Source: a virus
Length of the DNA: 43,455 nucleotides
IMG/VR virus record: IMGVR_UViG_3300032516_000058
Coordinates: 1 to 43,455 of that record
Reading direction: 5' to 3' (one strand)
Shown: positions 11,473-39,383 of the stretch, piece after piece
How positions within the stretch are numbered: the first letter of the stretch is position 1
How the letters are laid out: each line of letters begins with the position of its first letter
Program-made: the position numbers and the translations under genes
The notes under the pieces: model-generated
Seen by the model: only the letters and a program-made list of their open reading frames with translations
Told to the model about the DNA's origin: nothing
The model's database searches: none

Positions 11473-11502
11473 CCTCCGCGTTCTCCGTGCCTCCGTGGTG
11501 AA
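11473..11502 (-). repeat. CACCACGGAGGCACGGAG repeat (copy 1)
   Basis: On the minus strand this reads TTCACCACGGAGGCACGGAG followed by AACGCGGAGG. It sits downstream of the 116-aa gene and upstream of the 81-aa zinc-ribbon gene. It shares nearly every base with the copy at 11879-11908. Confidence 0.9.
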
Positions 11503-11521
11503 TCCCCGTTTCCGGCTTGCC

Positions 11522-11872
11522 CTAATACCAACCATGCGCGAACGGCACGTCGTCTTCGGTGGAGCCTTGCTGCCCGACCAATTGGATGTAGGTGCAGGCA
11601 TAGAGTCGCGCCCTCACGACGTGGTGCGCGATTCGACGGAGCGTGCTGGCGGACGGCCAGACCACCAGTCTCTCCAGGGCGCGCCGCGCCTTCCTCTCCT
11701 GGTGCTCCTGGGCTTGCAGGCACAAGGCGATCGTGAGGTTCTGATAGCGATGCCAGAGGATCCGGCCAGCGGCAGACGGCACCTCGACCCAAGCGGGCAC
11801 GCGATCGGGCCAGCCCATCCGGGCCTGCTCGGCGACGATTGCCAGCTCGATGTCACGACTGAATTGCGGCAT
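11522..11872 (-). CDS. Unknown protein, 116 aa
   Basis: The protein is helical and mildly basic, with Trp and Arg scattered throughout and no membrane segment. The start is well set: an ATG at 11872 preceded by GCGGAGGGAAAGC, where the GGAGG comes from the 3' end of the repeat copy at 11879-11908. It lies between a zinc-ribbon gene and an adenine methyltransferase gene. I do not recognise the family and cannot assign a role. Confidence 0.7.
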   Translation of the reverse strand: MPQFSRDIELAIVAEQARMGWPDRVPAWVEVPSAAGRILWHRYQNLTIALCLQAQEHQERKARRALERLVVWPSASTLRRIAHHVVRARLYACTYIQLVGQQGSTEDDVPFAHGWY

Positions 11873-11878
11873 GCTTTC

Positions 11879-11908
11879 CCTCCGCGTTCTCCGTGCCTCC
11901 GTGGTGAA
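11879..11908 (-). repeat. CACCACGGAGGCACGGAG repeat (copy 2), supplies a ribosome-binding site
   Basis: The minus-strand copy ends in AACGCGGAGG and is followed after about six bases by the ATG at 11872. The GGAGG of the repeat is therefore at Shine-Dalgarno distance. Confidence 0.9.
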
Positions 11909-11914
11909 TCCCCG

Positions 11915-12721
11915 CTACCCGCCTCGAGCCGCGGTGGATCCACCAGGTAGGACCGCCGCGGTGGGCCCGCCTGGGGTCGACCGAGATCGGCGGCTGCCGC
12001 CCTTGGCGGTCCCGCCGCGATCGCCGGCGGCCGCGGCGGACTTGCCGTTGGTGGCCACCAACGCGGCGAGGACCGCCGCCCGCTTGATCGGGTCCAGGGC
12101 CTCGAACCGCCGCGTCCAACGCTGGACGAGGCGGTGGAAGTCGAGTCGCCCGCGCCAGTCGCGGCCAATCCACCGGTCATCGTGGAGCTCGATCGGCGCG
12201 GGATAGTTCATCCACAGGACCTCCACGGCGGGGCCGCCGCGGGTCTGCACGCCGTAGGTCTCCCTGCGCCACCCCTTGAGCATGCGGTCGTAGAGCGCCG
12301 ACTGGTAACCGGAGATCATGATCCAATGCTCCTGCAACCGCAGCAGGGTCAGCAGTAGTTGCTCGTGGTCCCTCGGCGTCATGTCGTGCTGGTAGTAACG
12401 CCGGTTGGGGTCTCGCCGCGTGGCTCGCAGATAGGGCGGATCGCAGTAGATGAAGACCGGCCCCCCGAACTGGCAAAGATCGCCCCGCAAAAACCTGATT
12501 CCATCCGCAGCGTGAAAAACCGTGTTCGGCGGCGCCTGCGGCCGCACCAGGTCGATTGACCGCTGGTCGAGGTCCACCGCGAAACTCTTCAGCGCCGGCC
12601 GTTTGTGCCGCAATATGGCACCGGAGCCCAGGAACGGCTCGATGTAGACGTCGTGCGGCGGGATCTGGTTGACGATCCGCCGCCAGGTGCCGCCCGAGTT
12701 TTTCCCGCCCGGGTAACGCAT
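11915..12721 (-). CDS. D12-class (Dam-like) N6-adenine DNA methyltransferase
   Basis: The enzyme would methylate adenine in a short DNA target using S-adenosylmethionine. MRYPGGK opens the protein as in Dam. The SAM-binding motif is YIEPFLGSG (26-34), and the catalytic DPPY lies at 94-97 (IYCDPPYL). These define the alpha/D12 class. At 268 residues the length is normal, but the last 60 residues are low-complexity, rich in Gly, Arg and Ala, and probably not part of the fold. The ATG at 12721 is preceded by a repeat copy with GCGGAGGAGG. It adjoins the ParB-like gene, whose end overlaps the repeat. Without a partner nuclease nearby, a protective or regulatory role is likely. Confidence 0.92.
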   Translation of the reverse strand: MRYPGGKNSGGTWRRIVNQIPPHDVYIEPFLGSGAILRHKRPALKSFAVDLDQRSIDLVRPQAPPNTVFHAADGIRFLRGDLCQFGGPVFIYCDPPYLRATRRDPNRRYYQHDMTPRDHEQLLLTLLRLQEHWIMISGYQSALYDRMLKGWRRETYGVQTRGGPAVEVLWMNYPAPIELHDDRWIGRDWRGRLDFHRLVQRWTRRFEALDPIKRAAVLAALVATNGKSAAAAGDRGGTAKGGSRRSRSTPGGPTAAVLPGGSTAARGG

Positions 12722-12724
12722 GGT

Positions 12725-14920
12725 TCAGCCTCCTCCGCGTTCTCCGTGCCTCTGTGGTGAGTCCTGGTTTCCGCCCTTCCTTCGCCGGCCGGGCCCGCGG
12801 CCGCCGGGTCTCAGCTCGGCCGGCATCGGCAGGCCGCGCTCGCGTTCCCGCCCGCGCTTGTCCATTCGGACCAAATCCGCCGGGCGGAGCGCCAGGAGCG
12901 CCTCGACGATATCGGTCTTCGTCCATGTGTTCATGTCGCCCCGCCGGCCTCCGTGTTGCTCGGGCCGACTAGCGGCGAAGACCTTCCCCCAACCAAGCAC
13001 CCCCTCGATCATCCCGACTAGTTGCTCCTTGCTGTGCAGCTCCCAGTAGCGGCGCGTCAGCGGCCCGCAGTGGGCCTTGTGCCAAGCCTCTTCCACGTCG
13101 ATCCCCAGGCGGACCGCAAACGCGTTCAGGTCCTCGGCCGGGACGTGGGGGACCGGCTGGCCGGGGTGGCCGGCCTCTTGCTCCCGATCCTTCGCCCAGA
13201 ACATTGCCGCCAACCACACGGCGACGTGGGCCGCGCAGTCGGGGAGCTCACTGAACATGCAGATCGCGGCGGCCGCCGCGTCGTCCTGGAGCATCCGGTT
13301 GCCGGTCTCCCCGGGGATCACGGCCCGGAGCTCCTCGCCGCGGCGGGCGATCTCCCGCTCCTTGCCCGAGGTCCAGGGTGGAAGCGGCCGGCGGCTCGCG
13401 GCGAAGTAAAGCGCGAGCCCGAGGACCATCCCCACGTCGACGTCCCGGCCGTCGCGGAGCCGCTCGGAGAGCAGCCATCGCAGCCAATCCGCCCGGACGG
13501 CTTCCAGCCGCTTCTCGTACTTCTCGGCCGCCTCCGTGGCCCGCGCCTCCGCCTGGCGCCTGGTGAGCTTTTCCGGCTTGTGATCGGCGGCCCGGGCCTT
13601 CGCCTTCCCGGCCTTCGCCGCAGCCGTCTTCCGCCACTCCACCAAAAACGCCCCCTGCCAACTCTTCCAAAGATCGACATGGACCGCCCGCTCCTCCTTG
13701 GCGGCCCCTTTGAGCCCGGTGTGCCGGGGGACCTCGATGATCCCGAGCCGCTCCCGTTGCTCCGGCGTGGGCGTGAAGATCGGGATCTGCTGGACGGCGG
13801 CCGAGTCCCAATCCGTGCCGTCGAGGGGCCGGGTGTTCGTCCGAACCTCCGCGGCCACATCGTGCATGAATTCGTCGTATGACCCGAATTCGATCTTGTC
13901 GCTCCGGCGGGTCCGTTGCTTCAGGAACCGCTCGGCGATCGCCGCCAGCAACTCCGGATGCTCGGCGTAGGGCAGGACCGCCCGGGCGTGGCCGGCCGGC
14001 AGCATTTCCGCGGAAATCCATCCGTGCCAGGGCTCCGCCGGGAGCCGCAGCAGGCCGACCGCGTTCGAGACGCTGGCCTGGCCGGCCCACCCGAGGCGTT
14101 TGGCCAGGTCCTCCTGGGTTATCCCCGCGGCCAGCAGCGACTGGAACCAGAGGGCCCGCTCGATCGGATTGAAGCTCGCCCGCTCTTCGTTGTCCGCGCC
14201 GACCTCCCAGCGGGCCTCGTCGTCGGTCAGCTCGACCACCTCCGCCCGGAGGGTTTCGAGCCCGACCAGCCGGGCCGCGCGGACCCGCCGCTCGCCGGCG
14301 ATCAGCTCGTAGACGAACCCAACTGCCGGCTTTGGTGCGTCGACCGTGCGGACCCGGATCGGGACGAGCTGCCGCGCGCGGAGTGATTCGCCGAGGGCCC
14401 GCAGCTGCTCCTCGGGAAACTCGTGCCTGGTCTGGTAGGGACTGGCGACCACCGCGGCCAATGGCACCAGACGCGATTCCGGGATGGCCGGCAAGACGCC
14501 GCCATCGAGCAATGAAGTATCCGACCGGCCGTTCCCGGTGGTGTGTCGGACCGGCGCCGGCTCGGGTTCCTCGCCTTCGTCCGCCGGCAAGGGGTTCTCT
14601 GCCTGAAAGCCCTTGCGCTCGGCGTACGCGTCGAGATCCTCTTCGGCGGTCTCGAATGTCGGCGACGGGGTGAATCGCTTCAGGACTTGCCGCCGTCCCA
14701 TCTCGTCCTCGGAGACCACACCCCAGCCGTCTCCCACCTCGGCGACGAAAATCCGGCGTCCGCCAAGCCCCCGGAAGACCTGCGGTATGATCTTCATGGG
14801 ATGGTCTGCGAAGCCCCGAAGTGCCCCCTTGGGAGGCTCGGGCAGTGGTCTCGGCGTAGCCAGGTTTAGGTCATGCCGTGCCCGTCGGACCGCTCGTCTC
14901 TTCGCGTTCATAGTAGTCAT
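12725..14920 (-). CDS. ParB/Spo0J-like protein, large (731 aa)
   Basis: A ParB N-terminal domain spans about 148-235, with the CTP-binding-type GERR motif in ELIAGERRVRAARLVG (205-220). An HTH follows (about 266-291, ITQEDLAKRLGWAGQASVSN). The remainder, about 430 residues, is helical and rich in Arg and Ala. ParB proteins bind centromere-like sites; phage ParB-like proteins can also act as nucleases or regulators. No ParA gene is present, so plasmid-style partition is doubtful. The start at 14920 has GCGGAGGAAAAGC in front, provided by a repeat copy. The final residues (DSPQRHGERGGG) are encoded by another copy, showing that the gene ends inside a repeat. It sits between two methyltransferase genes. 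Confidence 0.88.
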   Translation of the reverse strand: MTTMNAKRRAVRRARHDLNLATPRPLPEPPKGALRGFADHPMKIIPQVFRGLGGRRIFVAEVGDGWGVVSEDEMGRRQVLKRFTPSPTFETAEEDLDAYAERKGFQAENPLPADEGEEPEPAPVRHTTGNGRSDTSLLDGGVLPAIPESRLVPLAAVVASPYQTRHEFPEEQLRALGESLRARQLVPIRVRTVDAPKPAVGFVYELIAGERRVRAARLVGLETLRAEVVELTDDEARWEVGADNEERASFNPIERALWFQSLLAAGITQEDLAKRLGWAGQASVSNAVGLLRLPAEPWHGWISAEMLPAGHARAVLPYAEHPELLAAIAERFLKQRTRRSDKIEFGSYDEFMHDVAAEVRTNTRPLDGTDWDSAAVQQIPIFTPTPEQRERLGIIEVPRHTGLKGAAKEERAVHVDLWKSWQGAFLVEWRKTAAAKAGKAKARAADHKPEKLTRRQAEARATEAAEKYEKRLEAVRADWLRWLLSERLRDGRDVDVGMVLGLALYFAASRRPLPPWTSGKEREIARRGEELRAVIPGETGNRMLQDDAAAAAICMFSELPDCAAHVAVWLAAMFWAKDREQEAGHPGQPVPHVPAEDLNAFAVRLGIDVEEAWHKAHCGPLTRRYWELHSKEQLVGMIEGVLGWGKVFAASRPEQHGGRRGDMNTWTKTDIVEALLALRPADLVRMDKRGRERERGLPMPAELRPGGRGPGRRRKGGNQDSPQRHGERGGG
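12732..12760 (-). repeat. CACCACGGAGGCACGGAG repeat (copy 3)
   Basis: This copy encodes the last residues of the ParB-like protein and also supplies GCGGAGG just upstream of the D12 methyltransferase ATG at 12721. Confidence 0.9.
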
Positions 14921-14926
14921 GCTTTT

Positions 14927-14956
14927 CCTCCGCGTTCTCCGTGGCTCCGTGGTGAA
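14927..14956 (-). repeat. CACCACGGAGGCACGGAG repeat (copy 4)
   Basis: The element lies in the 40 bases between the C5-methyltransferase stop (14961) and the ParB-like ATG (14920). It ends in AACGCGGAGG, six bases before the start codon. Confidence 0.9.
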
Positions 14957-14960
14957 TCCC

Positions 14961-15758
14961 CTACCCCTGTTCGAGCAACTCGCGAATCGCCGTGAACAGC
15001 GCCCGCCCCATGGCCATCGGCACGGCGTTGCCCACGGCCTGGCACTTGGCCTCGATCGTCATGCCCGGCAGATCGAAGCCCGCGGGCAGACCCTGCTTCC
15101 GGCACAGCTCCGCAAACATCTCCTTACTTCTCAGGGTTAAACCCAGGCGGGACGTCCCTCTCCGCAGTCCGCCGCCTTTACGCCGCCGATCGCGGCCATT
15201 GCCGATCGTACTCTTGCTGGCGCCGCCGATCGCCGCGTATTCCCAGAGGCTGTTCTCGATGGCGACGCGGGGCAACACCAGGTGCGTCGCACGGCAGCGC
15301 CTCATCCTGGGCCCGTCGCCGCAGATGCAATTCGCCCCCCCGCGCCATCCGAAGGTCAGCCTCCGGAGGCGATTCTGGCTCTCTCCCAGCCAGCGGTTAT
15401 TGAACAACTGCGGATGGACCCCGTAGTCACGGGGCCGTGGAATCGGCGCTCCCCGGACGTTCTCCATGAGAAACCACAACGGCTGGGCCTCCCGCACCAC
15501 CCGCACATACGCGGGGATCAGGTTCCCAAATTTCGGCTTGTGTCCGTTGTGTTTGATGAGGCCCTTCAGCGAGCAAAAGGGCTGGCACGGCGGGCCGCCG
15601 AACACCCCGCCGAACACTCCGGCCGGCGGATGGAAGTTACGGATGTCGCCGCCCCAGAGGACGTCCGGTCCGCGGACAACGCAGAACCGCAACTCCTCAG
15701 CGGCGACGCCGAACAGATCGATCCCCGGAAACACGGACAGGAGCAGGTTAGGGTTCAT
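14961..15758 (-). CDS. C5-cytosine DNA methyltransferase (Dcm family)
   Basis: The enzyme would make 5-methylcytosine. Motif IV GGPPCQPF contains the catalytic Cys58. ENVRGAP (99-105) is motif VI. QNRLRRLTFGW (128-138) is motif VIII, and QAVGNAVP (near 240) is motif X. At 265 residues it is shorter than typical family members (300-400), with the loss in the target-recognition region (about 140-225), which is basic and has a CICGDGPRMRRC cluster. It overlaps the upstream winged-helix gene by 11 bases. It is followed by the ParB-like gene and the D12 methyltransferase, forming a DNA-modification block. I see no cognate endonuclease. Confidence 0.92.
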   Translation of the reverse strand: MNPNLLLSVFPGIDLFGVAAEELRFCVVRGPDVLWGGDIRNFHPPAGVFGGVFGGPPCQPFCSLKGLIKHNGHKPKFGNLIPAYVRVVREAQPLWFLMENVRGAPIPRPRDYGVHPQLFNNRWLGESQNRLRRLTFGWRGGANCICGDGPRMRRCRATHLVLPRVAIENSLWEYAAIGGASKSTIGNGRDRRRKGGGLRRGTSRLGLTLRSKEMFAELCRKQGLPAGFDLPGMTIEAKCQAVGNAVPMAMGRALFTAIRELLEQG

Positions 15759-16032
15759 GTTTCACCAGCCACCATTTCCAGGCGTGCCCGCCCTTCGCCG
15801 TCCGCTCGCGGCGCAGCGAGTGGTGGATCAGGCCCATTTGCGCCAACCGCCGCAACGCCCGGCGCACCGATGCTATAGACATTCCGGCCAGGTCCGCGTG
15901 TCCCAAGACCCACGCCAATTCCCCCGCGGTTTTCGGCTCGTACATCCTTAGCGCCTTCCACGCCCACCTCGGCCCACGATGGTCGGCGATCTCGTCCGGC
16001 ACGCAGATCGGCTGTGCCATCCGCCAACCCAT
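15748..16032 (-). CDS. Winged-helix DNA-binding protein, 94 aa
   Basis: The central part (about 32-80, AGELAWVLGHADLAGMSIAS, VRRALRRLAQMGLIHHS) is a winged helix with a recognition helix and a basic wing (LRRERTAKGGHAWKWWLV). It could repress the methyltransferase block. The ATG at 16032 has CAGGGG upstream. A second ATG five codons on, at 16020, could also be used. Its 3' end overlaps the C5-methyltransferase start, so translation is likely coupled. Confidence 0.75.
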   Translation of the reverse strand: MGWRMAQPICVPDEIADHRGPRWAWKALRMYEPKTAGELAWVLGHADLAGMSIASVRRALRRLAQMGLIHHSLRRERTAKGGHAWKWWLVKHEP

Positions 16033-16061
16033 GACCCCTGCGCCCTCCCGTCCGCTGTGGT

Positions 16062-16226
16062 TCAGTCAGACGCCACCTCAGCCGGCAAACCATCCTCTTC
16101 GTCCAGATCGACCACCTCGGTTTGCCTGAACATCGGCGTGCGCCCATCACTCACCTTGTAGGGCTCGGCGATCGGCTCGCCGTCGACGGCCTCCGCTGGC
16201 AACAGCATCGCCGAACATTGTCCCAT
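16062..16226 (-). CDS. Small acidic protein, 54 aa
   Basis: The start is set by a repeat copy ending in GCGGAGGAAAACC directly before the ATG at 16226. The sequence (MGQCSAMLLPAE...) ends in an acidic stretch, EVVDLDEEDGLPAEVASD. There is no recognisable domain. Small acidic phage proteins often bind and block host DNA-binding enzymes, but that is only a thought here. It falls between the radical SAM gene and the winged-helix gene. Confidence 0.6.
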   Translation of the reverse strand: MGQCSAMLLPAEAVDGEPIAEPYKVSDGRTPMFRQTEVVDLDEEDGLPAEVASD

Positions 16227-16232
16227 GGTTTT

Positions 16233-16261
16233 CCTCCGCGCTCTTCGCGTCCTCTGTGGTT
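16233..16261 (-). repeat. CACCACGGAGGCACGGAG repeat (copy 5, divergent)
   Basis: On the minus strand it reads AACCACAGAGGACGCGAAGA then GCGCGGAGG. It is a hybrid of the CGGAG and CGAAGAGCGCGAAG forms and lies five bases before the ATG at 16226. Confidence 0.85.
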
Positions 16262-16264
16262 GGT

Positions 16265-17056
16265 TCATTCGCACCGTGGATAAGCCGGCAAGCCGAGGAC
16301 CGTCCGAAACGAATTCTTCCAGCGGACCTTCGGGTTGCCGCCCACCAGCTCGTAAAGCCTCCGCACCGCCGCCGGCGTCTGCCCCGCCTCGATCCGGGCG
16401 ATCTCCGCCGGGTCCGTCCCGGGCACAACCCGCCGGGCGATCTGGTTCATGCCGCCGACCCAGATCGTGCGGGTCACGTAACGGTCCAGGGCCTTGAGAA
16501 GCCACGGAAAGTCGTAGGTGTCCAGGCACGGCTCGGCGGAGACGCTCGTCTCGAAACCGGCATCGTAGGCCATGCGCAGGGACGCAATGCGGGCCGAGGC
16601 GCTCGGCGCGCCCGGCTCCCAGTAATTCAGCACATTACATCGCAAGGCCCCGATCGTGAATCGGAACTCGATCAGCTCCCGCACGTCACGGAACCTCTCG
16701 ATGATCGCGCCAACGCACGATGGGGTGGGCTTGCTGACGACGAGGACCCGGTTGCCGGCCTCCAGCAAGTGATCGAGGACGTCAAGGCAGGGCTGCAAGA
16801 ACTGCGGCGTGATGTCGTGTGTGGTGGGGAACATCACGGTCCCTGAATACTTCGGGAACCTTCGCCGGACCTGCGCCTCGTTCACTTCGAGGTAGGTTGT
16901 GCCCCACTGCTCGGGCGATTTGATCCGCCGGAATCGCAGGGCCTCGGCCCGGGCGTAGCAGTAGCGGCAGCGGTGCTCGCACCCGCGCACGCAGTTGACG
17001 GACTGGTCGCTCCACTCCAGCGTGCCGCCGCGGGGCTTGGCTGGGCATTTTGTCAT
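16265..17056 (-). CDS. Radical SAM protein, spore-photoproduct-lyase/phage Gp37-like
   Basis: The [4Fe-4S]-binding motif is C-x3-C-x2-C at Cys26, Cys30 and Cys33 (CEHRCRYCYAR), the radical SAM signature. The order GTLEWSDQSVNCVRGCEHRC resembles the start of phage Gp37/Gp68-type radical SAM proteins. The middle (TVMFPTTHDITPQFLQPCLD, then RVLVVSKP and FRFTIGA) resembles the SplB-like barrel. The substrate is unknown. DNA-base repair or base modification fits the neighbouring methyltransferases. GGAGGTGA precedes the ATG. The first four bases overlap the end of the 281-aa gene upstream, so the two are likely co-translated. Confidence 0.85.
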   Translation of the reverse strand: MTKCPAKPRGGTLEWSDQSVNCVRGCEHRCRYCYARAEALRFRRIKSPEQWGTTYLEVNEAQVRRRFPKYSGTVMFPTTHDITPQFLQPCLDVLDHLLEAGNRVLVVSKPTPSCVGAIIERFRDVRELIEFRFTIGALRCNVLNYWEPGAPSASARIASLRMAYDAGFETSVSAEPCLDTYDFPWLLKALDRYVTRTIWVGGMNQIARRVVPGTDPAEIARIEAGQTPAAVRRLYELVGGNPKVRWKNSFRTVLGLPAYPRCE

Positions 17057-17898
17057 CGCGTCACCTCCGCGTCGGGATCAGACTCTCCGTGTTTCCAGCC
17101 CGATGTCTTCCACCTCCGGAGTGCGGCCAGGCGTTCCGCGGTCAATACGATCCGCGGCGAGAAGACCCTGCCAGGCTCCCGCGTCGCAAGCAGGGCCCGC
17201 ACGAACTCTCCGTTCCTGCCATTGCACTCGTCCGAAAAGAGCGCGTCGACGGCGGCGCTGAGAGAGTCGTAATCCCGATTTTCGCGGTCGCGAAATTCCG
17301 GGAAATCCCGCTCTTCAAAGAGCGACCTCACAAACGCCGGGATCCGTTGTCCGAAGCGATAGAGGGACTCGCCCAGCTCCTGGCGAATGGAGACGCGCCA
17401 TGAGCTGGAGTGCGAGTAGCCGTAAAGAATCTCAAACGTCCAACGGCGATCCGTATCAAACCGGATCACCGATCGTTGCCCGAAGACCGCCTCGGGGTGC
17501 GAGGCATTGGGCCCGGGTTTCTTCAACCGGCGCTCGCGGACCCCGTGGAAGGCGGGTACGACGCGGGGCCACCCAGGCAGGCGGATCGGCTTGGCCAGGT
17601 CGGCCCATCTCTTGATCCCGCACGCCGCCAAGAACCGGCCGCTGCGCCACCGGCTGCCGACGCAGGCGAAGATCCGCACGAGGGCCTTTTTTAGTTGCCC
17701 CGGCGTGCTGAAGCCCTGGAGATCGTGGAACCCCGTGCCCGATGTATCGTCGTTGACGCACTCCAGATCGTAGGGGAACAATTGGATTGCGCGGCGGGCG
17801 ACGTGTTCCCACAACGGGAGATAGCACACCGGTTGCCGGGCGTCGTAGGGACCGTCGAGGCTCTCGGCCACGATGTAGGAAGGTATGTAGGTAATCAT
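17053..17898 (-). CDS. Unknown 281-aa protein coupled to the radical SAM gene
   Basis: I do not recognise the family. The protein is rich in Arg and aromatic residues, with a YGYSHSSSWRVSIRQELGES block in the middle and a basic C terminus. It has no membrane segment or signal peptide. GAGGTGAGTC precedes the ATG at 17898. It starts three bases after the winged-helix gene and overlaps the radical SAM start by four bases, so the pair is tightly linked. It might be the substrate-binding or specificity partner of the radical SAM enzyme. That is inference from linkage. Confidence 0.7.
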   Translation of the reverse strand: MITYIPSYIVAESLDGPYDARQPVCYLPLWEHVARRAIQLFPYDLECVNDDTSGTGFHDLQGFSTPGQLKKALVRIFACVGSRWRSGRFLAACGIKRWADLAKPIRLPGWPRVVPAFHGVRERRLKKPGPNASHPEAVFGQRSVIRFDTDRRWTFEILYGYSHSSSWRVSIRQELGESLYRFGQRIPAFVRSLFEERDFPEFRDRENRDYDSLSAAVDALFSDECNGRNGEFVRALLATREPGRVFSPRIVLTAERLAALRRWKTSGWKHGESDPDAEVTR

Positions 17899-17901
17899 GA
17901 C

Positions 17902-19002: not shown

Positions 19003-19035
19003 GCCGTCACTTCCGTGCTTAGCGTGCGTAGCGTG

Positions 19036-20668: not shown

Positions 20669-20719
20669 CGGGCGCTCCCTAACTTTTTGGACCTACCGGC
20701 CTCTCTCAGGTTTGCTTGC

Positions 20720-21205: not shown

Positions 21206-21415
21206 TCAGGGCTCCGGAAAAAGAGAGGGCTCACCACGGAGGCACGGAGGCACGGAGAACAGCATGCGACGCACTGGCGTCTTGTGGCAAAACACCGAGC
21301 CTTTGTTTTTTCCACAATGTTCTGCGCTCACACGTATCCAGAGGCCACGGAATTGCTCGTACTCATCACCGTCCTGAAGCTCGTCACGTTGGGTCAAACG
21401 CTTGTACTTCGGCAT
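21206..21415 (-). CDS. Small protein of 69 aa ending in a repeat
   Basis: GGGAG is eight bases before the ATG at 21415. The N-terminal 45 residues (MPKYKRLTQRDELQDGDEYE...) look real: acidic and Tyr-rich. Similar openings occur in small phage proteins of unknown role. The last part (MLFSVPPCLRGEPSLF) is the reverse reading of a CACCACGGAGGCACGGAG repeat, which suggests an element replaced or extended the original 3' end. Confidence 0.6.
   Translation of the reverse strand: MPKYKRLTQRDELQDGDEYEQFRGLWIRVSAEHCGKNKGSVFCHKTPVRRMLFSVPPCLRGEPSLFPEP
21231..21260 (+). repeat. CACCACGGAGGCACGGAG repeat (copy 6), inverted within a gene
   Basis: The plus-oriented tract has CGGAGGCACGGAGGCACGGAG, an extra internal unit. 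It lies in the 3' part of the minus-strand gene 21206-21415. Confidence 0.85.
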
Positions 21416-24597: not shown

Positions 24598-24963
24598 TGA
24601 ACGCTCCCCCGATTCTTCTGGCTCGCGATTGGACCGGTGCGGACCTCACCCCCTAACCCAACCCGGGCGCCCGCGGCGGGTCTGCCTGTTGCGCCCGGGC
24701 CGCCGTCGACCAGCGGTGGGCCCGCCGGGCCTCGAGGCGGGGCCAAACCGCGATCCCCCCGCGGTGACCCCGCCGCGGCGGTCCTGCCTGGAGGAGCAGC
24801 TTGGCGTATCCCGAAATCCAGGGAGGCGGCGGCTTGTATCCCCGCGATCGGTGGGATACGCTGTATGACAGCGGCCGCACTCGGCAGGGCTGCCGAGGTC
24901 GCCGGCGAGTCCAATCGCGGAAGGCATTCACCACAGAGGCACGGAGAACACGGAGGACTGGAC
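24598..24963 (+). other. Gap with a possible 19-codon ORF and GC-rich DNA
   Basis: An ATG at 24598, abutting the preceding stop, opens a 19-codon frame (MNAPPILLARDWTGADLTP) that may be a leader or nothing. The rest is GC-rich with several GGGCCCGCC-like palindromic pieces. A TTG at 24801 with GGAGGAGCAGC in front opens a frame that runs through the repeat at 24927-24956. I could not support it as a gene. Confidence 0.4.
24927..24956 (+). repeat. CACCACGGAGGCACGGAG repeat (copy 7), plus orientation
   Basis: TTCACCACAGAGGCACGGAG then AACACGGAGG lies eight bases before the ATG at 24964. Its orientation follows the plus-strand operon, so the repeat again points towards the downstream start codon. 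Confidence 0.9.
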
Positions 24964-25156
24964 ATGGCGGTGCTCGTACAGCGGTGCATCCGGCTGAGAC
25001 CGGACCAGGTCGAGACGATCAAGGGGATGGTCAATCCGAAAGACGGCAGACTGTTCGGGCGTGCTGCGGTCCGCCCTTGACCGCGGCCTCAGGGCGATGG
25101 TGGCCGAGCAGGCGGCGGGCAAGAAGGGCCCGGCCCGCAAGGCGCGGAGGGCGTGA
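24964..25156 (+). pseudogene. Ribbon-helix-helix-like gene with a +1 frameshift
   Basis: From the ATG at 24964, frame one encodes MAVLVQRCIRLRPDQVETIK, then GMVNPKDGRL, and stops at 25078-25080. One base on, in the +1 frame, TCG GGC GTG continues as SGVLRSALDRGLRAMVAEQA to a TGA at 25154-25156. Joined at DGRL-SGVL, the two give a good ribbon-helix-helix pattern. A one-base insertion, a sequencing error or programmed +1 frameshifting would all explain it. The join lies at about 25049-25054 (CTGTTCGGG). If intact, it would be a small regulator of the plus operon or an antitoxin-like protein. No toxin is seen. Confidence 0.6.
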
Positions 25157-25188: not shown

Positions 25189-25497
25189 ATGAAGGGTAGC
25201 CAGCGGCGGTTCTTTGTGGGTGGACCGATCAACGGCAGCCTCGATTGGGGTGAGATTCACCCCACCATTACGTTTCTGGATCGGCGCTTGGTCCACCATG
25301 ACTATCGCCAAAGCGGAGTCATCGGCAGCGAGCTGGCGATCTTCATCTTCATCTTCACCCATCCCAGCATGGATGGCCTGACCTCGGCCGAACGGGATGA
25401 AAAGATCGAACAGGCCTGGAATGCGGCGCCGCCCTACGGGGCCAAATTCCCAGGGGCCGGCCCTGATTCCTCCGTGTTCGCCGTGCCTCCGTGGTGA
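25189..25497 (+). CDS. Unknown protein, about 102 aa, ending in a repeat
   Basis: The ATG at 25189 has AGAGG nine bases upstream; an alternative GTG start lies at 25153. The body (FVGGPINGSLDWGEIHPTIT, ELAIFIFIFTHPSMDGLT) looks folded and is not low complexity. The last residues (SSVFAVPPW, stop) are the reverse reading of a repeat, so the 3' end is defined by that insertion. No family is recognised. It is the last gene of the plus operon and ends 13 bases before the minus-strand gene at 25510. Confidence 0.6.
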   Translation: MKGSQRRFFVGGPINGSLDWGEIHPTITFLDRRLVHHDYRQSGVIGSELAIFIFIFTHPSMDGLTSAERDEKIEQAWNAAPPYGAKFPGAGPDSSVFAVPPW

Positions 25498-26930: not shown

Positions 26931-26954
26931 TTACCACAGAGGACGCCGAGGAGG
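26931..26954 (+). repeat. CACCACGGAGGCACGGAG repeat (copy 10, partial)
   Basis: TTACCACAGAGGACGCCGAG plus GAGG reads on the plus strand and forms the 3' end of the zinc-finger mini-gene. Confidence 0.8.
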
Positions 26955-27128
26955 GGGAGGGGGAGGTGGGGTCGGTTTCAGCTCGCGAACCAGGCCGGGA
27001 TCGGGATACCCCGGCGGCATCGCGATGCCGCTCCCGCCGCATGCCCTGCATCGGATTCCCGGAAGAAAGAACGCCGCTGGGTCGGGGACGGCGCCTCGAC
27101 CCCGGCAGACCTCACAGAAATTGAACAT
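26931..27128 (-). CDS. DnaJ-type zinc-finger mini-protein, 65 aa
   Basis: CEVCRGRG and CRACGGSG repeat the C-x2-C-x-G-x-G motif of the DnaJ central zinc finger, here as a stand-alone mini-protein. The rest is Pro-rich. The 3' end (RRPLW, stop TAA) is the reverse reading of a repeat copy at 26931-26954. The 5' side (27131-27157) is another copy in sense orientation, so the gene is bounded on both sides by repeats. It might assist folding of tail proteins. Confidence 0.7.
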   Translation of the reverse strand: MFNFCEVCRGRGAVPDPAAFFLPGIRCRACGGSGIAMPPGYPDPGLVRELKPTPPPPPPPRRPLW

Positions 27129-27130
27129 GA

Positions 27131-27157
27131 CTCGGTGTTCTCCGTGCCTCCGTGGTT
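27131..27157 (-). repeat. CACCACGGAGGCACGGAG repeat (copy 9)
   Basis: ACAACCACGGAGGCACGGAG then AACACCGAG lies just before the ATG at 27128 on the minus strand. Confidence 0.85.
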
Positions 27158-27158
27158 G

Positions 27159-30549: not shown

Positions 30550-30558
30550 GATAGGACC

Positions 30559-32152: not shown

Positions 32153-32159
32153 GCTGGCA

Positions 32160-32205
32160 GGGATTGGGGATTAGGGATTAGGGATTAGGGGTCAGGGGTC
32201 AGGGA
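32160..32205 (+). repeat. Tandem GGGATTA repeat with G-quadruplex potential
   Basis: GGGGATTA/GGGATTA units follow each other, then GGGGTCA twice, giving at least six G-tracts of three or four with short loops on the plus strand. This is the template strand for the minus-strand genes around it. It fills the gap between the tape measure stop (32213) and the next gene (32152). Confidence 0.85.
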
Positions 32206-32212
32206 TCCCCGG

Positions 32213-34219: not shown

Positions 34220-34243
34220 CGCTCAGCTCTTCGTCAGGTGGCC

Positions 34244-34322
34244 ACCACGAAGAACAGGAAGAGAACGAAGAGAAAGGACGGAGCACTATTCCTCTTCATG
34301 TTCTTCGCGCTCTTCGTGGTTT
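34244..34322. repeat. Inverted pair of CACGAAGAGCGCGAAGAA repeats
   Basis: A plus-strand copy (CCACCACGAAGAACAGGAAG..., 34244-34277) faces a minus-strand copy (AACCACGAAGAGCGCGAAGA then ACATGAAG, 34286-34322). Their facing orientation would allow a stem-loop in transcripts upstream of the tape measure. Confidence 0.75.
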
Positions 34323-34334
34323 GCGTTCCGCGTT

Positions 34335-34360
34335 CCGCTTTCCGCTCTCAGCTTTCCGCT
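34335..34360 (-). repeat. AGCGGAAAGCTGAAAGC-type repeat
   Basis: AGCGGAAAGCTGAGAGCGGA and the next bases match the tract at 40475-40500. It overlaps the very end of the 71-aa gene at 34359. Confidence 0.75.
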
Positions 34361-34574
34361 ACGGCCTGGTGGCGACCCCGGCGGCGTAGGCGGCCTCCAG
34401 CCGGGCCCCCGCCGCAAACGCCGCGGCGCGCAGGACGTGGTCGGGGCGCGGGGCCCCGTTGAGACACGCCACGATCGCCGCCCGCGGTCGGCGCCGATCG
34501 CGGCGGGGGTAGAATGCGCGGGTCGCCTCCCGCGCCCGGGCAGAGCCGAGTGAAAAATAGTTGAGCTGCCCCAC
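34359..34574 (-). CDS. Small basic protein upstream of the tape measure, 71 aa
   Basis: The GTG at 34574 overlaps the upstream stop by one base (TAGTG), a clear coupling. The protein is basic and Ala-rich (SARAREATRAFYPRRDRRRP, AAAFAAGARLEAAYAAGVAT). A small protein directly before the tape measure is often a tail chaperone. This one is short and has no visible frameshift site, so it could be an additional chaperone or an unrelated gene. Confidence 0.6.
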   Translation of the reverse strand: MGQLNYFSLGSARAREATRAFYPRRDRRRPRAAIVACLNGAPRPDHVLRAAAFAAGARLEAAYAAGVATRP

Positions 34575-35032
34575 TAGCCGATCTCCCGAAACGTCATCCG
34601 CACGACGCCGTTGAAGCTCGTCGGCGCGCTGAGGAGGCGCAGGCCGATCGTGCCCCCGCCGGGAACGATCACTCGCTCCTCGGGGAGCGGGTCGAGAAAC
34701 CACCCTGACAAGCTGCTAAACCCCTCGCGGCCGATTTCGGAGTTGGCCGCGTAGGTCGGCTCGCCGCCCGTCACGTCCGCTTTGACGGTCGAGGCCGCCG
34801 CTTGGTCGCCCGCCTCGTGTGCGGCGGGCGTCACTGCCGTGGCGGCGGGCGTGCCCAGGGCCTGGACCCGCTGGAGGCAGCACACCAACTGCTGGTTGAC
34901 CGGGTTGGACTCATTGGTCAGCGCCGCGGAGAGGATCTCGACCACTTGGTTGGCGGCCGCGGTGAGGTAGATCACGGTCTTGGCCGCGGCCAGGGCGCTG
35001 ATCCGGTAACTTGCGGTGTAGACGCCTCGCAT
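34574..35032 (-). CDS. Tail-module structural protein, 152 aa
   Basis: MRGVYTASYRISALAAAKTV opens the protein. It has a central block with Cys-Cys (LVCCLQRVQALGT) and a C-terminal block GWFLDPLPEERVIVPGGGTI, both folded-looking. AGGAGG is eight bases before the ATG, the strongest ribosome-binding site of the module. Such layouts are common for minor virion proteins. Family not recognised. Confidence 0.65.
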   Translation of the reverse strand: MRGVYTASYRISALAAAKTVIYLTAAANQVVEILSAALTNESNPVNQQLVCCLQRVQALGTPAATAVTPAAHEAGDQAAASTVKADVTGGEPTYAANSEIGREGFSSLSGWFLDPLPEERVIVPGGGTIGLRLLSAPTSFNGVVRMTFREIG

Positions 35033-35044
35033 TACGATTTCCTC

Positions 35045-36862
35045 CTAAAGCACTTTGCGTCGCCGGGATACAATCACTGCGCCCGCGTACACGTCGAAGT
35101 TCCAGTACATGGTTCCCGAGCCGTTGCGCCCGCCCACCCGCAGCCGGAGCTGCCGGTCGTAGGCCGGGACAAGGCTCAGCGTGAGCGTCTGCCAGGCGGT
35201 GTCGTCGGCCATGGTCGCCGTGACGAGGGCCTCCTGGGCATCGCCCCAGGGCTTGTTCGGGTTGATCAGCCTGGCGTAGGGCGTGGCGGTCATGCCGTTT
35301 TGCTGCTTGCGGACGTAGACCCGCACGGTCAGGGGCAGGTTGGCCTCACCCCAGACGGGCACCTCGACGAAGTCGTCGTAGCCGGCCGCCTCGAAGGTGT
35401 GTTTGTGGACGTAGCTGAGCGGGACGGGCGGAGTGCCATGGGTGCCCAAGACCCAGTCCTCGCTCGCCCCATAGCCGCCGCAGTTCCACCACTTCATCCG
35501 GCCAAGCTGCGGATCGCCCGACGCATCGGCCACGTCGTAGAGAACGACCAAGGCGGTTGGATAGGGGCTGGTCTTCAGGTACTCGCTGACCTGCACGGTC
35601 GATCGCAGGCCCGCGCCATACCCTTCCCAGTATCCGTTTAAGAGGGCCAGGTCGGAGGTGGAGTTGGCGTTGGCGCCGCTGCCGCCGAGGACCGCCCCCT
35701 GCTTGATCGTCCCCGTCCCGTAGATGATCCCCCAGGTGCAGCCCGTGATGCTGCCGACGACGTCGCACGCCCCACAATTGTCAACCCCCTTGGCGCATCC
35801 AATCACCTGGCCGCCGAGGGACGCTCCAGTGATGTTCTGCAAGCCGGCCGTGCAGCCGGCGACGGTTCCGCTTAAGGAGCCTCCCAGCAACCCCGTGGCG
35901 CCGGTCGTGCTGCCGGCAATGAGCCCGCTGACGGTGAACCCCGTGCTGCTGGCGTAGCCGGAGGAGATTCCAGTGCCGTTGCCGACGACACAGCCGGAGA
36001 CGACGCAGCCTTCGCGGCCGCTGATGCCCCCGGAGAACCCGTTGATGACGCCGCCCAGCGTGTCGCCGTAACTGTAGATGATGCTGAAGCCCTGCTGGGT
36101 GCCCGTCTGGCGCAGGGTGCAGTTGAAGACGCAACTGCCGACGGCTCCGCTCGACGGCCCGGTCACCACGCTCTGCGAGCCCTCTGCGGTGATCTCGATG
36201 TTGCGGGTCACGCGCACGAGAAAGGCCCCGGCGACGTTGGTGGAATCGAGGGCATCGCTCACCGTGATCGTCGTGGCGGCGATCCCGCCCGCGGCGATCG
36301 TGGTCCGCTGGTAATCCACGCCCTTGTTGACGTTGCACAGGGCCACGACCTCCCCGGCGGCCCAAATATCGCCGGTCACGTCGGTATCGACGGAGAGGAC
36401 CGTCTGGCCCGCCGCCTTGTCCGCGGTGAGCTTGACCCACTTGTAGGTCGGCTGGGCGCAGAAGAGCTGGACGTCGAGGTAGGTCCGGTCGATCTGGGCC
36501 CCGCCGCTGGTGGTCCCGAGGAGCTTGATCGTGAGCTTCGCCCCGTTCGAGAGCGGCGTCCCGGCCGATCCGGCATAGAGCTGGCCCTTGACCGCGGCAT
36601 TGGTGCCCTGGATCTTGGTGCCGGTCTTGATCGGCAGGACGTAGGTCCCGTTGGCGGTGGCGCACTGGAGCTTGCCGGGAGTCACGGCGGCGGACGTGAT
36701 GGTCAACCCAGCCACGCCCGTGGTCCAGGCGGACAAGTCGACGTCGAAGGTCAGCGTATGTCCGGCGGCGACGACCACGGCGTCGCCGTCGGCCGGGAGC
36801 GAGCCGCCCCAGGTGGCGGTGTCCGACCAGTTGCCCGATTGTGCGGTCGTCTTGGTTGCCAC
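35045..36862 (-). CDS. Beta-helical fibre/tailspike-like protein with N-terminal G8-like domain, 605 aa
   Basis: The N terminus (SGNWSDTATWGGSLPADGDA, VVVAAGHTLTFDVD) follows the G8-domain pattern, in which a W-x5-TW-G start is followed by a DGD turn. Residues about 230-390 form a right-handed beta-helix made of short, Gly/Ser/Cys-rich turns (GCVVSGCVVGNGTGIS, then GTVAGCTAGLQNI). The C-terminal 170 residues look like a jelly roll (RVYVRKQQNGMTATPYARLI). Such proteins bind or degrade surface polysaccharide. It is unusual to find it between the candidate tail chaperone and the tape measure. GTG start with GGAGGG upstream. Confidence 0.8.
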   Translation of the reverse strand: MATKTTAQSGNWSDTATWGGSLPADGDAVVVAAGHTLTFDVDLSAWTTGVAGLTITSAAVTPGKLQCATANGTYVLPIKTGTKIQGTNAAVKGQLYAGSAGTPLSNGAKLTIKLLGTTSGGAQIDRTYLDVQLFCAQPTYKWVKLTADKAAGQTVLSVDTDVTGDIWAAGEVVALCNVNKGVDYQRTTIAAGGIAATTITVSDALDSTNVAGAFLVRVTRNIEITAEGSQSVVTGPSSGAVGSCVFNCTLRQTGTQQGFSIIYSYGDTLGGVINGFSGGISGREGCVVSGCVVGNGTGISSGYASSTGFTVSGLIAGSTTGATGLLGGSLSGTVAGCTAGLQNITGASLGGQVIGCAKGVDNCGACDVVGSITGCTWGIIYGTGTIKQGAVLGGSGANANSTSDLALLNGYWEGYGAGLRSTVQVSEYLKTSPYPTALVVLYDVADASGDPQLGRMKWWNCGGYGASEDWVLGTHGTPPVPLSYVHKHTFEAAGYDDFVEVPVWGEANLPLTVRVYVRKQQNGMTATPYARLINPNKPWGDAQEALVTATMADDTAWQTLTLSLVPAYDRQLRLRVGGRNGSGTMYWNFDVYAGAVIVSRRRKVL

Positions 36863-36863
36863 G

Positions 36864-37055
36864 TCAGGGTCCCTCCGGCGGCGTGAAAGGCGGCTCGCTC
36901 ACCGCGGCCATCAGGGCGGCTTCGACCTGGTCGGCCGCAGCCTGGACGTCGGCCGGCTCTTCGGCGAAATGGAAGACCCGCACCGAGCCGTCCGCCAGCC
37001 GGCAGCGAACGTCGAAGCCGTCGCAGACGCAGGACTGATCGAGAATTGCCGCCAT
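36864..37055 (-). CDS. Small protein, 63 aa
   Basis: MAAILDQSCVCDGFDVRCRL followed by ADGSVRVFHFAEEPADVQAA, a small beta-alpha protein with three Cys residues. It starts three bases after the end of the previous gene and ends one base before the GTG of the beta-helical protein, so it is part of the same unit. Function unknown. Confidence 0.65.
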   Translation of the reverse strand: MAAILDQSCVCDGFDVRCRLADGSVRVFHFAEEPADVQAAADQVEAALMAAVSEPPFTPPEGP

Positions 37056-37058
37056 GGC

Positions 37059-37469
37059 TCAACTCCCCCCCACCGGCAGTGAGTAGATTTCCAGCGTCTC
37101 GACCTCCAGCGGGTTTAGGGCGATCGTCTCACCGCCCACGTCGGTGAGGACGACCTCGACGCGGTAGGTCCGGTCGCCGGCGGGGAAATTGATCCCCGGG
37201 ATCTTCCAGACGAAGTTGGGGTTGGATGCGTAGGGCCAGCGGGGGTCGCTCACCGCCGGGTTGGGAATCACCGCCGACTGGACGAGGGTGCCCGAGCTGG
37301 TGGGGACCGAGGGGGTGTCGCCGTCGAGGTCGTACACGTTGTAGACGATCGACGCCACCGCCGCCGGCACGACCGGGACGCCGAGGTTGTCAAAGACCTC
37401 GGCCAGGAGGACGACCGCACTGGCCTCCCAGGTCACGATCTTCGTCGGCTTCGGTCGAGCTTGCGTCAT
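37059..37469 (-). CDS. Minor structural protein, 136 aa
   Basis: A beta-sandwich-like protein (TWEASAVVLLAEVFDNLGVP, VVYNVYDLDGDTP-like pattern, TYRVEVVLTDVGGETIALNP). The ATG at 37469 lies one base after the stop of the -1 frame at 37471, so the reading passes directly from the frameshifted frame to this gene. It is a tail component by position. Confidence 0.7.
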   Translation of the reverse strand: MTQARPKPTKIVTWEASAVVLLAEVFDNLGVPVVPAAVASIVYNVYDLDGDTPSVPTSSGTLVQSAVIPNPAVSDPRWPYASNPNFVWKIPGINFPAGDRTYRVEVVLTDVGGETIALNPLEVETLEIYSLPVGGS

Positions 37470-37470
37470 G

Positions 37471-37640
37471 TCAGCGCCGGATCAGGTAGTTGGTCGTGTA
37501 AACCGCCAGGGGCGGCGGGTCGCCGAGACCCACCGCCAGGGCCCACATGTCGGTCAGGGTGGGTCGGTAGCCGGGGTCGAGTCCCCGGGCCCATCTCCGG
37601 TATTCGAGCCATCGGACTCCCCGGCGGCCTGTTTTTTTTT
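37471..37640 (-). CDS. -1 frame extension of the tail chaperone (fusion product)
   Basis: After the A9 run the -1 frame stays open for 53 codons: TGRRGVRWLEYRRWARGLDP then GYRPTLTDMWALAVGLGDPP and PLAVYTTNYLIRR, stop at 37473-37471. The sequence has real protein character (aromatic, folded-looking, no low complexity). The frame ends one base before the next gene's start. A -1 slip would give about 293 residues in place of the zero-frame 265. Lambda G/GT and many siphophage tail chaperones are made this way. Confidence 0.7.
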
Positions 37641-38351
37641 GCGGAACCATGCCAGCCGCGTGGGCACGTCGCAGAGCGCGTCCAGGATCTCGCTGGCCAA
37701 TTCGGTCGAAAGCAGGCCCAAGAGGTCGATCTCCGCGGACCCAACCAAGTAATTGACCGCCAACATCCTGATCGCGCTCTCGACCACATCGTTAAACTTG
37801 AAGGTTGCGACGTCCTCGTCGTCCTTCTTCCCGGCATTGCGGGCGGCTTCGATACTGCTGTTCTCCCACCGCTGGGCGAGGTCCCAGATTGCCTGGTAAC
37901 GGGGCACGATCGCGGTGGACTGCCAGGTCCCGTCCTGGGCGCGGGCCAGTCGCCGGGGCAGGTTGTGGGCCCATCGCAGCTCCCCGTCTTCCTCCTGGTA
38001 TTGGCGGGCGATGGGCACGAGCCACTGCTGGCCGTCCAGGAGCTCGAGCCAGTGGCCGGTGATCGGCTTCTGGCGGAGCAGGTCGGCGGGCCCGGGCAAC
38101 GGGCCGTCGGTGTGGACGCCGACCCAAAGCTCTCGCGTCGGGTCCTTGATCCATCGCTGGCGGGTGGGGAAGTAGCCGACCTCAGGCACCCGCTGGCCGT
38201 CGCCGAGCAGCACTCCCCCATGGCCGTTCGGCCCGTTGCCCGTGATCTGCCGGCAGACCGGCTTGGACTCGAAGGCATGGCCGACCCCGGCGGCGATCAG
38301 ATCGGCCGGCGGGCCCAAAAGGTTCGGTATGTAGTACAAGAAACCTGGCAT
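37554..38351 (-). CDS. Candidate tail assembly chaperone (zero-frame product), 265 aa
   Basis: The ATG at 38351 has GGAGGGACC just before it; another ATG lies five codons upstream. The N-terminal 180 residues are mixed alpha/beta (MPGFLYYIPNLLGPPADLIA). The C terminal part (FNDVVESAIRMLAVNYLVGS, EILDALCDVPTRLAWFRKKK) is helical like tail chaperones. Lys238-240 are encoded by nine consecutive A bases, where a -1 slip would create a second product. After the slip point, the zero frame continues into a Gly/Ser/Asp-rich tail. It lies just downstream of the candidate tail tube gene, as expected. Homology to known chaperones is not proven. Confidence 0.7.
   Translation of the reverse strand: MPGFLYYIPNLLGPPADLIAAGVGHAFESKPVCRQITGNGPNGHGGVLLGDGQRVPEVGYFPTRQRWIKDPTRELWVGVHTDGPLPGPADLLRQKPITGHWLELLDGQQWLVPIARQYQEEDGELRWAHNLPRRLARAQDGTWQSTAIVPRYQAIWDLAQRWENSSIEAARNAGKKDDEDVATFKFNDVVESAIRMLAVNYLVGSAEIDLLGLLSTELASEILDALCDVPTRLAWFRKKKQAAGESDGSNTGDGPGDSTPATDPP
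37632..37638 (-). promoter_or_regulatory. Putative -1 ribosomal frameshift site (A AAA AAA)
   Basis: The frame is CGC AAA AAA AAA CAG at 37643-37629. The heptamer A AAA AAA has the X XXY YYZ form in the zero frame. The -1 frame then reads ACA GGC CGC. An A9 tract is outstanding in this GC-rich DNA. A downstream stem or an upstream Shine-Dalgarno-like sequence would help; AGGCCGCCGG after the site may pair. Confidence 0.65.
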
Positions 38352-38378
38352 GGTCCCTCCTAACAAGTCCCGTTGCTT

Positions 38379-38407
38379 CCTCCGTGCTCTCCGTGCCTCC
38401 GTGGTGA
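38379..38407 (-). repeat. CACCACGGAGGCACGGAG repeat (copy 11)
   Basis: TCACCACGGAGGCACGGAGA then GCACGGAGG lies 28 bases before the ATG at 38351 on the minus strand, in the gap after the tail tube gene. Confidence 0.9.
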
Positions 38408-38420
38408 CTTTTCCCCGGTC

Positions 38421-39347
38421 TTACGTGGGTAGGGCGGTCCCCACGGTGATCGCCAGCGGGGCGTTGGTCCCGTCATAGTCCAGGGGCAGCGAGAGCGTGG
38501 TCTGGGAGCCGTCCGAGCCCTGGCCCTCGAACGGGGTCTCGATCGTGGCCAGGCCGCTGGCCGCGAGCTTGATGTGTTGGGCGGTGGCCGGGGCGACGAA
38601 AGTCGCCCCCTTGGCCCGCTTGCGGAGATAGATCGCCGTGTTCGCGTGCGTGGCGACGAGCCCGGTCATCGGGACGGCGGCGGCCTTGAGCCATTCCACG
38701 TCGATCCCGGTCAGCCGGATCGTGGTCAGAACGTGGCGGATCGACGTGAACGTGTCCCAGATGTCCGAGTCGGCCGACTCGGCGACCACGTCGATCCCGA
38801 AGTCGATCGAGAGGTTGTGGACGCCGGTGAAGGTCACGCCGCCGATCTGGACCGGGCCGAGGGTGAACCGCTCGGCGTCGGCGATCCCGGAGGGCAAGGC
38901 CACGGAGTCGGTGATCACCATCGGCTCGTTGGTGCCGTCGTGGACGATCACCGCGTCGTAGCTCAGGAGCGCATCGCCGCGGTGGTCGATGGTGAGGTTC
39001 TTCGGGGCGAGGATCCCGCGGGTGAACCCGTACTTGCGGTGGTTGCTCCCCGCAGTACGCGAGGAGCCGTCGGCGTGCTTCTGGGCGTAGAGGGCCAACC
39101 CGCCGACCATCTCGGCGATGCTCGCCCCGACCGTCCCGCACGCCGTCAGCGCCGTGGCGACGCACTTGGTCGAGAACCCGGGGGCGATCTTCTGGGCGTA
39201 CAGGGACTGCCAGCGGGCGTAGATCTCGCCCGAGGTCGCCTCGCGGCGGACCTCGCTCCCCAGGGCGATCGACTGGCGGGTGATCCCGCCCAACAACGTC
39301 GCCCCCAGGTTGACCGCGTAGAGGTTGTGTTTTCTGGTGACACCCAT
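38421..39347 (-). CDS. Major tail (tube) protein candidate, 308 aa
   Basis: MGVTRKHNLYAVNLGATLLG opens the protein. It is beta-rich with a central HNLSIDFGIDVVAESADSDI and a C-terminal block (QTTLSLPLDYDGTNAPLAIT). It lies between the neck genes and the tail chaperone, where siphophages keep the tube subunit. GGAG lies eight bases before the ATG, supplied by a repeat copy at 39356-39383. The family call is by position and fold character, not by clear homology. Confidence 0.72.
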   Translation of the reverse strand: MGVTRKHNLYAVNLGATLLGGITRQSIALGSEVRREATSGEIYARWQSLYAQKIAPGFSTKCVATALTACGTVGASIAEMVGGLALYAQKHADGSSRTAGSNHRKYGFTRGILAPKNLTIDHRGDALLSYDAVIVHDGTNEPMVITDSVALPSGIADAERFTLGPVQIGGVTFTGVHNLSIDFGIDVVAESADSDIWDTFTSIRHVLTTIRLTGIDVEWLKAAAVPMTGLVATHANTAIYLRKRAKGATFVAPATAQHIKLAASGLATIETPFEGQGSDGSQTTLSLPLDYDGTNAPLAITVGTALPT

Positions 39348-39355
39348 TTTCTTTT

Positions 39356-39383
39356 CTCCGTGGTCCCTGTGGCTCCGTGGCGG
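39356..39383 (-). repeat. CACCACGGAGGCACGGAG repeat (copy 12, divergent)
   Basis: CCGCCACGGAGCCACAGGGA then CCACGGAG precedes AAAAGAAA and the ATG at 39347. Its GGAG again sits at ribosome-binding-site distance. Confidence 0.85.

Follow-up and report, generated by a model that had tools for sequence, protein, structure and literature searches.

Organization of the phage genome and its dispersed element

The DNA analyzed here (the window) comprises 43,455 bases of an IMG/VR virus record, and its two ends carry a near-identical repeat of 140 nt. Its genes, nearly all of which lie on the minus strand, include those for a GpA-type terminase, a portal, a head-protease capsid protein and an integrase, and the window is best read as the 43-kb genome of a temperate siphophage. 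Comparison of the phage terminase with 294 Planctomycetota genomes gave only ~30% identity and pinpointed no host, and a search of viral contigs with the capsid gene returned no relative. Searches with the terminase and ParB yielded one sister contig only, IMGVR_UViG_3300031834_001941 (loci L037, L100 and L101), which is ~80% identical at the DNA level and 90% identical in the terminase and portal protein.

As collected in Table 1, a short repeat recurs at gene borders across much of the window. An 18-mer from it gave 10 matches at ≤3 mismatches, compared with 0.12 expected from shuffles, and the full 30-nt unit, TCACCACGGAGGCACGGAGAACRCGGAGGA, often with GGGGAT directly before it, is recognizable at ~13 places when variants and relics of TCACCACGGAGGCACGGAGAACRCGGAGGA are counted, confirming that the repeat reported in a preliminary description of this DNA is real. 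By its sequence, the unit (hereafter the arm) is non-palindromic and consists of three direct iterated words that are purine-rich, the word in the window element being CACGGAG. One copy, at 12731 to 12760, overlaps a coding region, and the ParB reading frame crosses it in its final 12 codons. The window also contains units in which an ORF is enclosed by an arm and an inverted arm; the ORFs of these units match no known family. Inverted copies had been described as forming gene ends, and for two of them the assignment stands, as the TGA at 25497 and the TAA at 26931 lie inside inverted arms. The third, at 21206, is not convincing: the nearby plus-strand copy at 21230 occupies a gap of 358 nt without closing any gene that is well supported.

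Table 1. Elements and associated genes in the window
Feature	Positions	Strand	Remarks
Element	11472..11501	-	Single arm behind g16, with no long gene next to follow in window
g16	11522..11872	-	116 aa, no family match; 87% identity to sister-phage copy; element on both sides
Element	11878..11907	-	GGAGG is sole Shine-Dalgarno (SD) candidate for g16 (start 11872); kept in sister phage
g17	11915..12721	-	D12-class adenine DNA methyltransferase
g18	12725..14920	-	ParB-like (731 aa), element on both sides; in another element-bounded slot in sister phage
Element	12731..12760	-	ParB/g17 border; GGAGG precedes g17 (start 12721); missing before g17 in sister phage
Element	14926..14955	-	Carries SD of ParB (start 14920)
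Degenerate element ACCACAGCGGACGGGAGGGCGCAGG	16037..16061	-	Before g20; sister-phage counterpart follows ParB
g21	16062..16226	-	Predicted 54-aa ORF; occupies sister's ParB slot; not found in sister phage
Variant element AACCACAGAGGACGCGAAGAGCGCGGAGGA	16232..16261	-	Gives SD of g21; same copy precedes ParB in sister phage
Partial copy	21230..21260	+	Inverted relative to neighboring genes; in 358-nt gap
Element	24928..24957	+	Left arm of convergent pair; ATG 24964 opens 38-codon ORF
Element	25468..25497	-	Right arm of pair with 24928; TGA stop for predicted plus-strand ORF 25189-25497
Degenerate inverted arm TTACCACAGAGGACGCCGAGGAGG	26931..26954	+	TAA stop for 65-aa ORF
Element	27129..27158	-	Directly before ATG 27128 (65-aa ORF, 27128-26931); end CACCGAGTC without GGAGG
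Convergent hairpin-type pair, sister word family	34242..34321		Arms 34290-34321 (-), AACCACGAAGAGCGCGAAGAACATGAAGAGGA, and 34242-34273 (+)
Element	38378..38407	-	26 nt upstream of g48 (start 38351); g48 has own AGGAGG
Degenerate element	39354..39383	-	GGAGAA before g49 (start 39347)

The element as a probable ribosome-binding site in the phage

The preliminary description held that most copies place a Shine-Dalgarno sequence just before a start codon. This is the case for five genes: the element ends 5–9 nt before the starts at 11872, 12721, 14920, 16226 and 39347, and in the gaps preceding g16, g17, ParB, g21 and g49, respectively, the GGAGG of the element (GGAGAA for g49) is the sole SD candidate. 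The ParB start at 14920 is backed by the sister phage. The other proposed starts are less secure, because the ATG at 24964 opens only a 38-codon ORF, that at 27128 opens a 65-codon ORF behind an element end (CACCGAGTC) without GGAGG and that at 38351 has the element 26 nt upstream and belongs to a gene with its own AGGAGG. The copies at 11472, 24928, 25468, 38378 and 21230 lie outside a ribosome-binding-site (RBS) position, and about half of the window copies do not adjoin start codons.

With random placement in non-coding DNA as the null, finding 5 of 11 copies whose end is no more than 12 nt from a start has a P value of 2e-4, which is low because the element sits in gaps of 38–49 nt. Conditioning on gap and strand gave an expectation of 5.2, compared with 5 observed; spacing alone therefore proves no selection, and we dropped exact start spacing as evidence for it. 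Orientation is the better argument for an RBS role. Each of the eight copies located between co-directional genes is in the sense orientation, the sole orientation giving an SD (8/8, two-sided P = 0.008). The preliminary description was drawn up without knowledge that the DNA is a phage genome with nearly all genes on the minus strand, a layout that inflates apparent agreement in orientation. The 16S rRNA of one Pirellulales genome with the repeat ends in GGATCACCTCCTTT / CCTCCTTT; pairing of the end GGATCACCTCCTTT with GGAGG is therefore possible, and, judging from these sequences, ribosomes would probably use the arm in translation.

The repeat in bacterial genomes and viral contigs

A 28-mer of the repeat was found in 53 stretches from Planctomycetota, Acidobacteriota, Chloroflexota, Bacteroidota, Proteobacteria and other groups, with up to 470 copies per genome and equal numbers on both strands of cellular DNA. 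In three bacterial genomes, for which genes were called with a simple caller of our own, 190 of the 194 copies lay outside called genes and 162 of the 194 had a convergent partner within 400 nt. A co-directional start was faced by 73 copies in these genomes, none of them closer than 108 nt, and these distances rule out a general RBS role in bacteria. Counts of orientation and start distance in the three genomes (convergent pairs, no strand bias, no start within 108 nt) thus run against the proposal that the repeat is an RBS cassette as far as cells are concerned, and the proposal stands within the phage family, where the element is the sole SD candidate at five genes and copies between co-directional genes are always in sense. 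The term describes the phage-side use of the repeat and not its nature.

The 5′ end of cellular copies tends to follow a stop codon, with pairs lying 2–13 nt after the stop in one genome and typically 29–48 nt in another. Cellular pairs are predicted to be able to fold into long hairpins, and the fillers between paired arms are variable and often palindromic. Viral contigs contained mostly the same convergent pairs, with a start within 20 nt for 9 of 122 copies. Among known phages, repeat matches did not go beyond chance, and among known plasmids, weak matches were present in four records. A search of the open-access literature for the word strings of the repeat returned no related paper, an absence that carries little weight.

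Association of the arms with GxxExxY genes

A few wider cellular pairs enclose ORFs, one of which encodes a GxxExxY protein (Pfam PDDEXK_3, TIGR04256; PD-(D/E)XK). GxxExxY genes were present in 12 of 12 element-bearing genomes tested and, in a phylum-wide sample of 98 genomes, in 12 of the 15 with the element compared with 29 of the 83 without it (P = 0.0016). Where a genome had a single copy, this copy lay within 40 nt of a GxxExxY gene in three of five cases (G078, G083 and G059; ~1e-4 expected for each). Matching inverted arms were found at 41 of 59 sampled GxxExxY genes, a set drawn partly from genomes picked for the repeat, compared with 7 of 206 controls, one of the 7 being itself a GxxExxY gene (P = 1e-26). 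The arm words at these genes include CACGGAG, CGCAAAG, CGCGGAT and CACAGATT, among others, and the three-word plan is common to all. In genome G079, the CACAGATT word flanks the GxxExxY gene and elsewhere forms gene-less pairs.

The distance from arm to start in GxxExxY units varies widely (≤20 nt in 21 of 39), and the arm is therefore not a dedicated RBS in these units. The idea that the element arrives with a gene is supported, unexpectedly, by the inverted pairs that flank GxxExxY genes in cells, even with this variation in distance. Neither the window nor the sister contig contains a GxxExxY gene, the window pairs enclosing other ORFs or none, and no four-helix-bundle gene was found in the window; its copies have only the arm sequence in common with the GxxExxY inverted-arm unit. 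Sequence searches found no relative of GxxExxY in the PDB, and the open-access literature holds passing mentions of it only. The GxxExxY protein may move the arms, and the units may be mobile.

Gene-content differences at element borders in a sister phage

The order of genes and elements (e and e′) in the window is g22-(e)-g21-(e′)-g20-g19-(e)-ParB-(e)-g17-(e)-g16-(e)-g15 and that in the sister phage is g22-(e)-ParB-(e′)-g20-g19-g17-(e)-g16-(e)-ORF95-(inverted e)-g15. At the g22 border, the sequence shared by both phages extends through one and the same element copy to its end and then gives way to different genes, g21 being present in the window and absent from the sister. Homology of ParB begins at its ATG, the flank upstream to the arm end belonging to the neighboring gene, and 3′ of ParB it extends to the element. 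ORF95 (95 aa) starts at the sister's counterpart of the element at 11472 and is closed by an inverted arm; ORF95 and this right arm are present in L100 and absent from the window at the same locus.

Consistent with the earlier claim that the element marks gene borders, genes have thus been gained, lost or moved between the two phages with the breakpoint at the element. Across the 19 junctions of the shared region, gene content changed at 5 of 6 element junctions compared with 0 of 13 others (P = 0.0005, a value that rests on three events in one 15-kb metagenome contig, the two junction changes per event not being independent). The genes g9, g10 and g12 were confirmed to occupy the same place in both phages. 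The element is missing from the g50/g49 junction of more distant relatives, which have there either a native TAAGGAG-type SD within a short gap or the iterated word AAGCTGAAAGC. Recombination presumably took place within the arms. Short shared sequences also lie at the gene borders where modules of lambdoid phages have been exchanged; unlike these module boundaries, the element repeats at many borders of one genome and carries an SD.

Probable origin and use of the arms

We favor the reading, at a probability of roughly 0.6, that the element belongs to a family of small-gene cassettes as their inverted-repeat arm and that single arms became RBS-bearing gene borders in the phage. The arm family would comprise inverted-repeat units with three iterated words that are rich in purines (CACGGAG in the window). 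Two arms that converge would pair up in cells as an intergenic, hairpin-like unit; some of these units enclose a GxxExxY (PD-(D/E)XK) gene and most enclose no gene. The phage lineage would have acquired arms, with a host genome as the probable source, and retained most of them as single copies where gaps between co-directional genes are narrow. There, an arm may be tolerated and useful in one orientation, the sense orientation only, because its 3′ end, GCGGAGGA, would serve as the SD of the next gene, and the 5′ end of an arm or an inverted copy could supply a stop codon. Repeated at many borders, arms would offer a short shared sequence for the exchange of whole genes in which the RBS is not lost.

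We consider it unlikely, if conceivable, that the copies are simply tolerated insertions, with arms landing anywhere, those in sense between genes surviving through a chance GGAGG and no role in gene exchange. Gap size does fully explain the spacing to starts, most cellular copies are unrelated to starts and some window copies lie in wide gaps with no gene start nearby, all of which such insertions would produce. What they leave unexplained is that gene content in the sister phage differs at the element junctions (5/6 vs. 0/13) and that ParB occupies a different element-bounded slot there.

Comparison with known repeat systems

The arrangement in the phage resembles the start-associated sequences (SAS/ESAS) described for mycobacteriophages of cluster K (PMC3203893) and Microbacterium phages of cluster EF (PMC7302621). 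SAS are likewise dispersed, asymmetric, conserved repeats with an SD core a few nucleotides before starts, mostly in one orientation, and stop codons of upstream genes can overlap them. SAS differ from the element in their length (13 bp compared with ~30 bp), in being essentially absent from host genomes, whereas the element is a common cellular repeat, and in that the passages on them report no gene movement. Inverted arms of the element also flank ORFs. Several SD-core copies near starts, as in SAS, are present in the window (five copies, 5–9 nt). SAS have virtually all copies by starts and are restricted to phages, whereas about half of the window copies lie elsewhere and the element abounds in Planctomycetota as well as in further phyla; we rejected membership in SAS on these defining features.

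It is improbable that the copies are phage-specific regulatory sites of the SAS kind, at which binding of the repeat by a protein or an RNA would govern a regulon at the level of translation or of transcription. About a dozen copies of an asymmetric, SD-containing sequence by starts, mainly in one orientation, would suit such sites, and the published SAS have the same layout. However, SAS are absent from the mycobacterial host, whereas the element is abundant in many phyla as inverted pairs, and the phage copies vary, with homologous junctions lacking the element or carrying another word repeat.

The TAACTGA repeats of Beggiatoaceae are also iterated short intergenic words, many of them immediately upstream of starts, and their patchy distribution across phyla suggests horizontal spread (PMC4679880). 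They differ from the element in being heptamer direct repeats without an SD core, cellular rather than phage-borne and proposed as regulator-binding sites (PMC4679880). REP/REPIN sequences and their RAYT (TnpA-REP) transposases (PMC2817692, PMC3116915, PMC8266576) share with the element the many short intergenic repeats, often in inverted pairs, and the relatedness of dispersed repeats to those on either side of a small DNA-processing gene of that genome. Numerous intergenic copies and frequent inverted pairs were indeed found here (≤470 per genome; 162/194 convergent). REPs, however, are palindromic and go with a Y1 HuH transposase, whereas the arm, with its three iterated words, is non-palindromic and encloses a PD-(D/E)XK gene, any transposition of which would be hypothetical. 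With a GxxExxY gene in place of a Y1 HuH cognate gene and a non-palindromic arm, membership in REP/RAYT was rejected on defining features.

That convergent or solo arms are transcription terminators or mRNA 3′-end stabilizers, near starts only incidentally, would fit the cellular pairs just after stop codons (2–13 nt; 29–48 nt) and their capacity for long hairpins and is nevertheless highly improbable, as solo phage arms cannot form a hairpin and are in sense in 8/8 cases, and a terminator inside phage operons would be harmful.

Implications

On the reading of the element as the arm of a small-gene cassette, we tentatively suggest, at less than even odds, that small genes flanked by inverted arms, namely those for GxxExxY nucleases and, where the words differ, for four-helix bundles, constitute a widespread, unrecognized class of mobile unit, that gene-less arms and hairpins make up a large share of the anonymous intergenic repeats of environmental bacteria and that phages took up arms as RBS-bearing sockets for gene exchange. 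If true, this would link unexplained repeats of many phyla, a small, conserved protein that resembles nucleases and has no known role, and single-gene swaps in phages that keep translation signals. It would also make for a concrete test of modular exchange, with breakpoints predicted in a 30-nt sequence that restores the SD each time, and it would serve as a warning that a repeat lying ahead of many starts in one setting may have no RBS role in another.

Inverted word repeats around other genes

Iterated words in inverted arrangement are also found around genes for four-helix-bundle proteins (TIGR02436) of Planctomycetota, where the word types are other than those of the element. Such inverted repeats flank 12 of 30 of these genes (loci L282-L311), compared with 7 of the 206 control genes of the GxxExxY comparison (P=5e-8). 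Within the window, further iterated-word repeats besides the element lie at gene borders, immediately upstream of starts. In the Telmatospirillum MAG array (locus L077), the spacer within each element pair is 36 nt, and the pair-to-pair distance is 44 nt. The arms of a long-range inverted repeat in the window are 13.5 kb apart, and the terminal direct repeat contains the palindrome GCCTTGGCGGACC...GGATCCGCCAAGGC.

Coordinates of the repeats
Feature	Location	Strand	Details
Iterated-word repeat	window 2456-2499	-	GGTGACGGGGTGACAAGGTGAA; just 5' of start
Iterated-word repeat	window 40458-40499	-	GCGGAAAGCTGAAAGCTGAAAGC; just 5' of start
Iterated-word repeat	window 34322-34358	-	CGGAAAGCTGAGAGCGG; just 5' of start
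Iterated-word repeat	window 32153-32212	-	CCCTGACCCCTAATCCC; just 5' of start
Inverted repeat, 56 nt	window 11094-11149, 24662-24717		89% complementary
Terminal direct repeat, 140 nt	window 4-143, 43316-43455		copies 97% identical, not exact
Tandem array of alternating element pairs	L077:3628-4677		Telmatospirillum MAG

At locus L144 (genome G009), the ORF between the two arms of a convergent element pair is 147 aa long and weakly resembles DUF4365 and Mrr-type restriction endonucleases, which suggests that GxxExxY is perhaps not the sole cargo.
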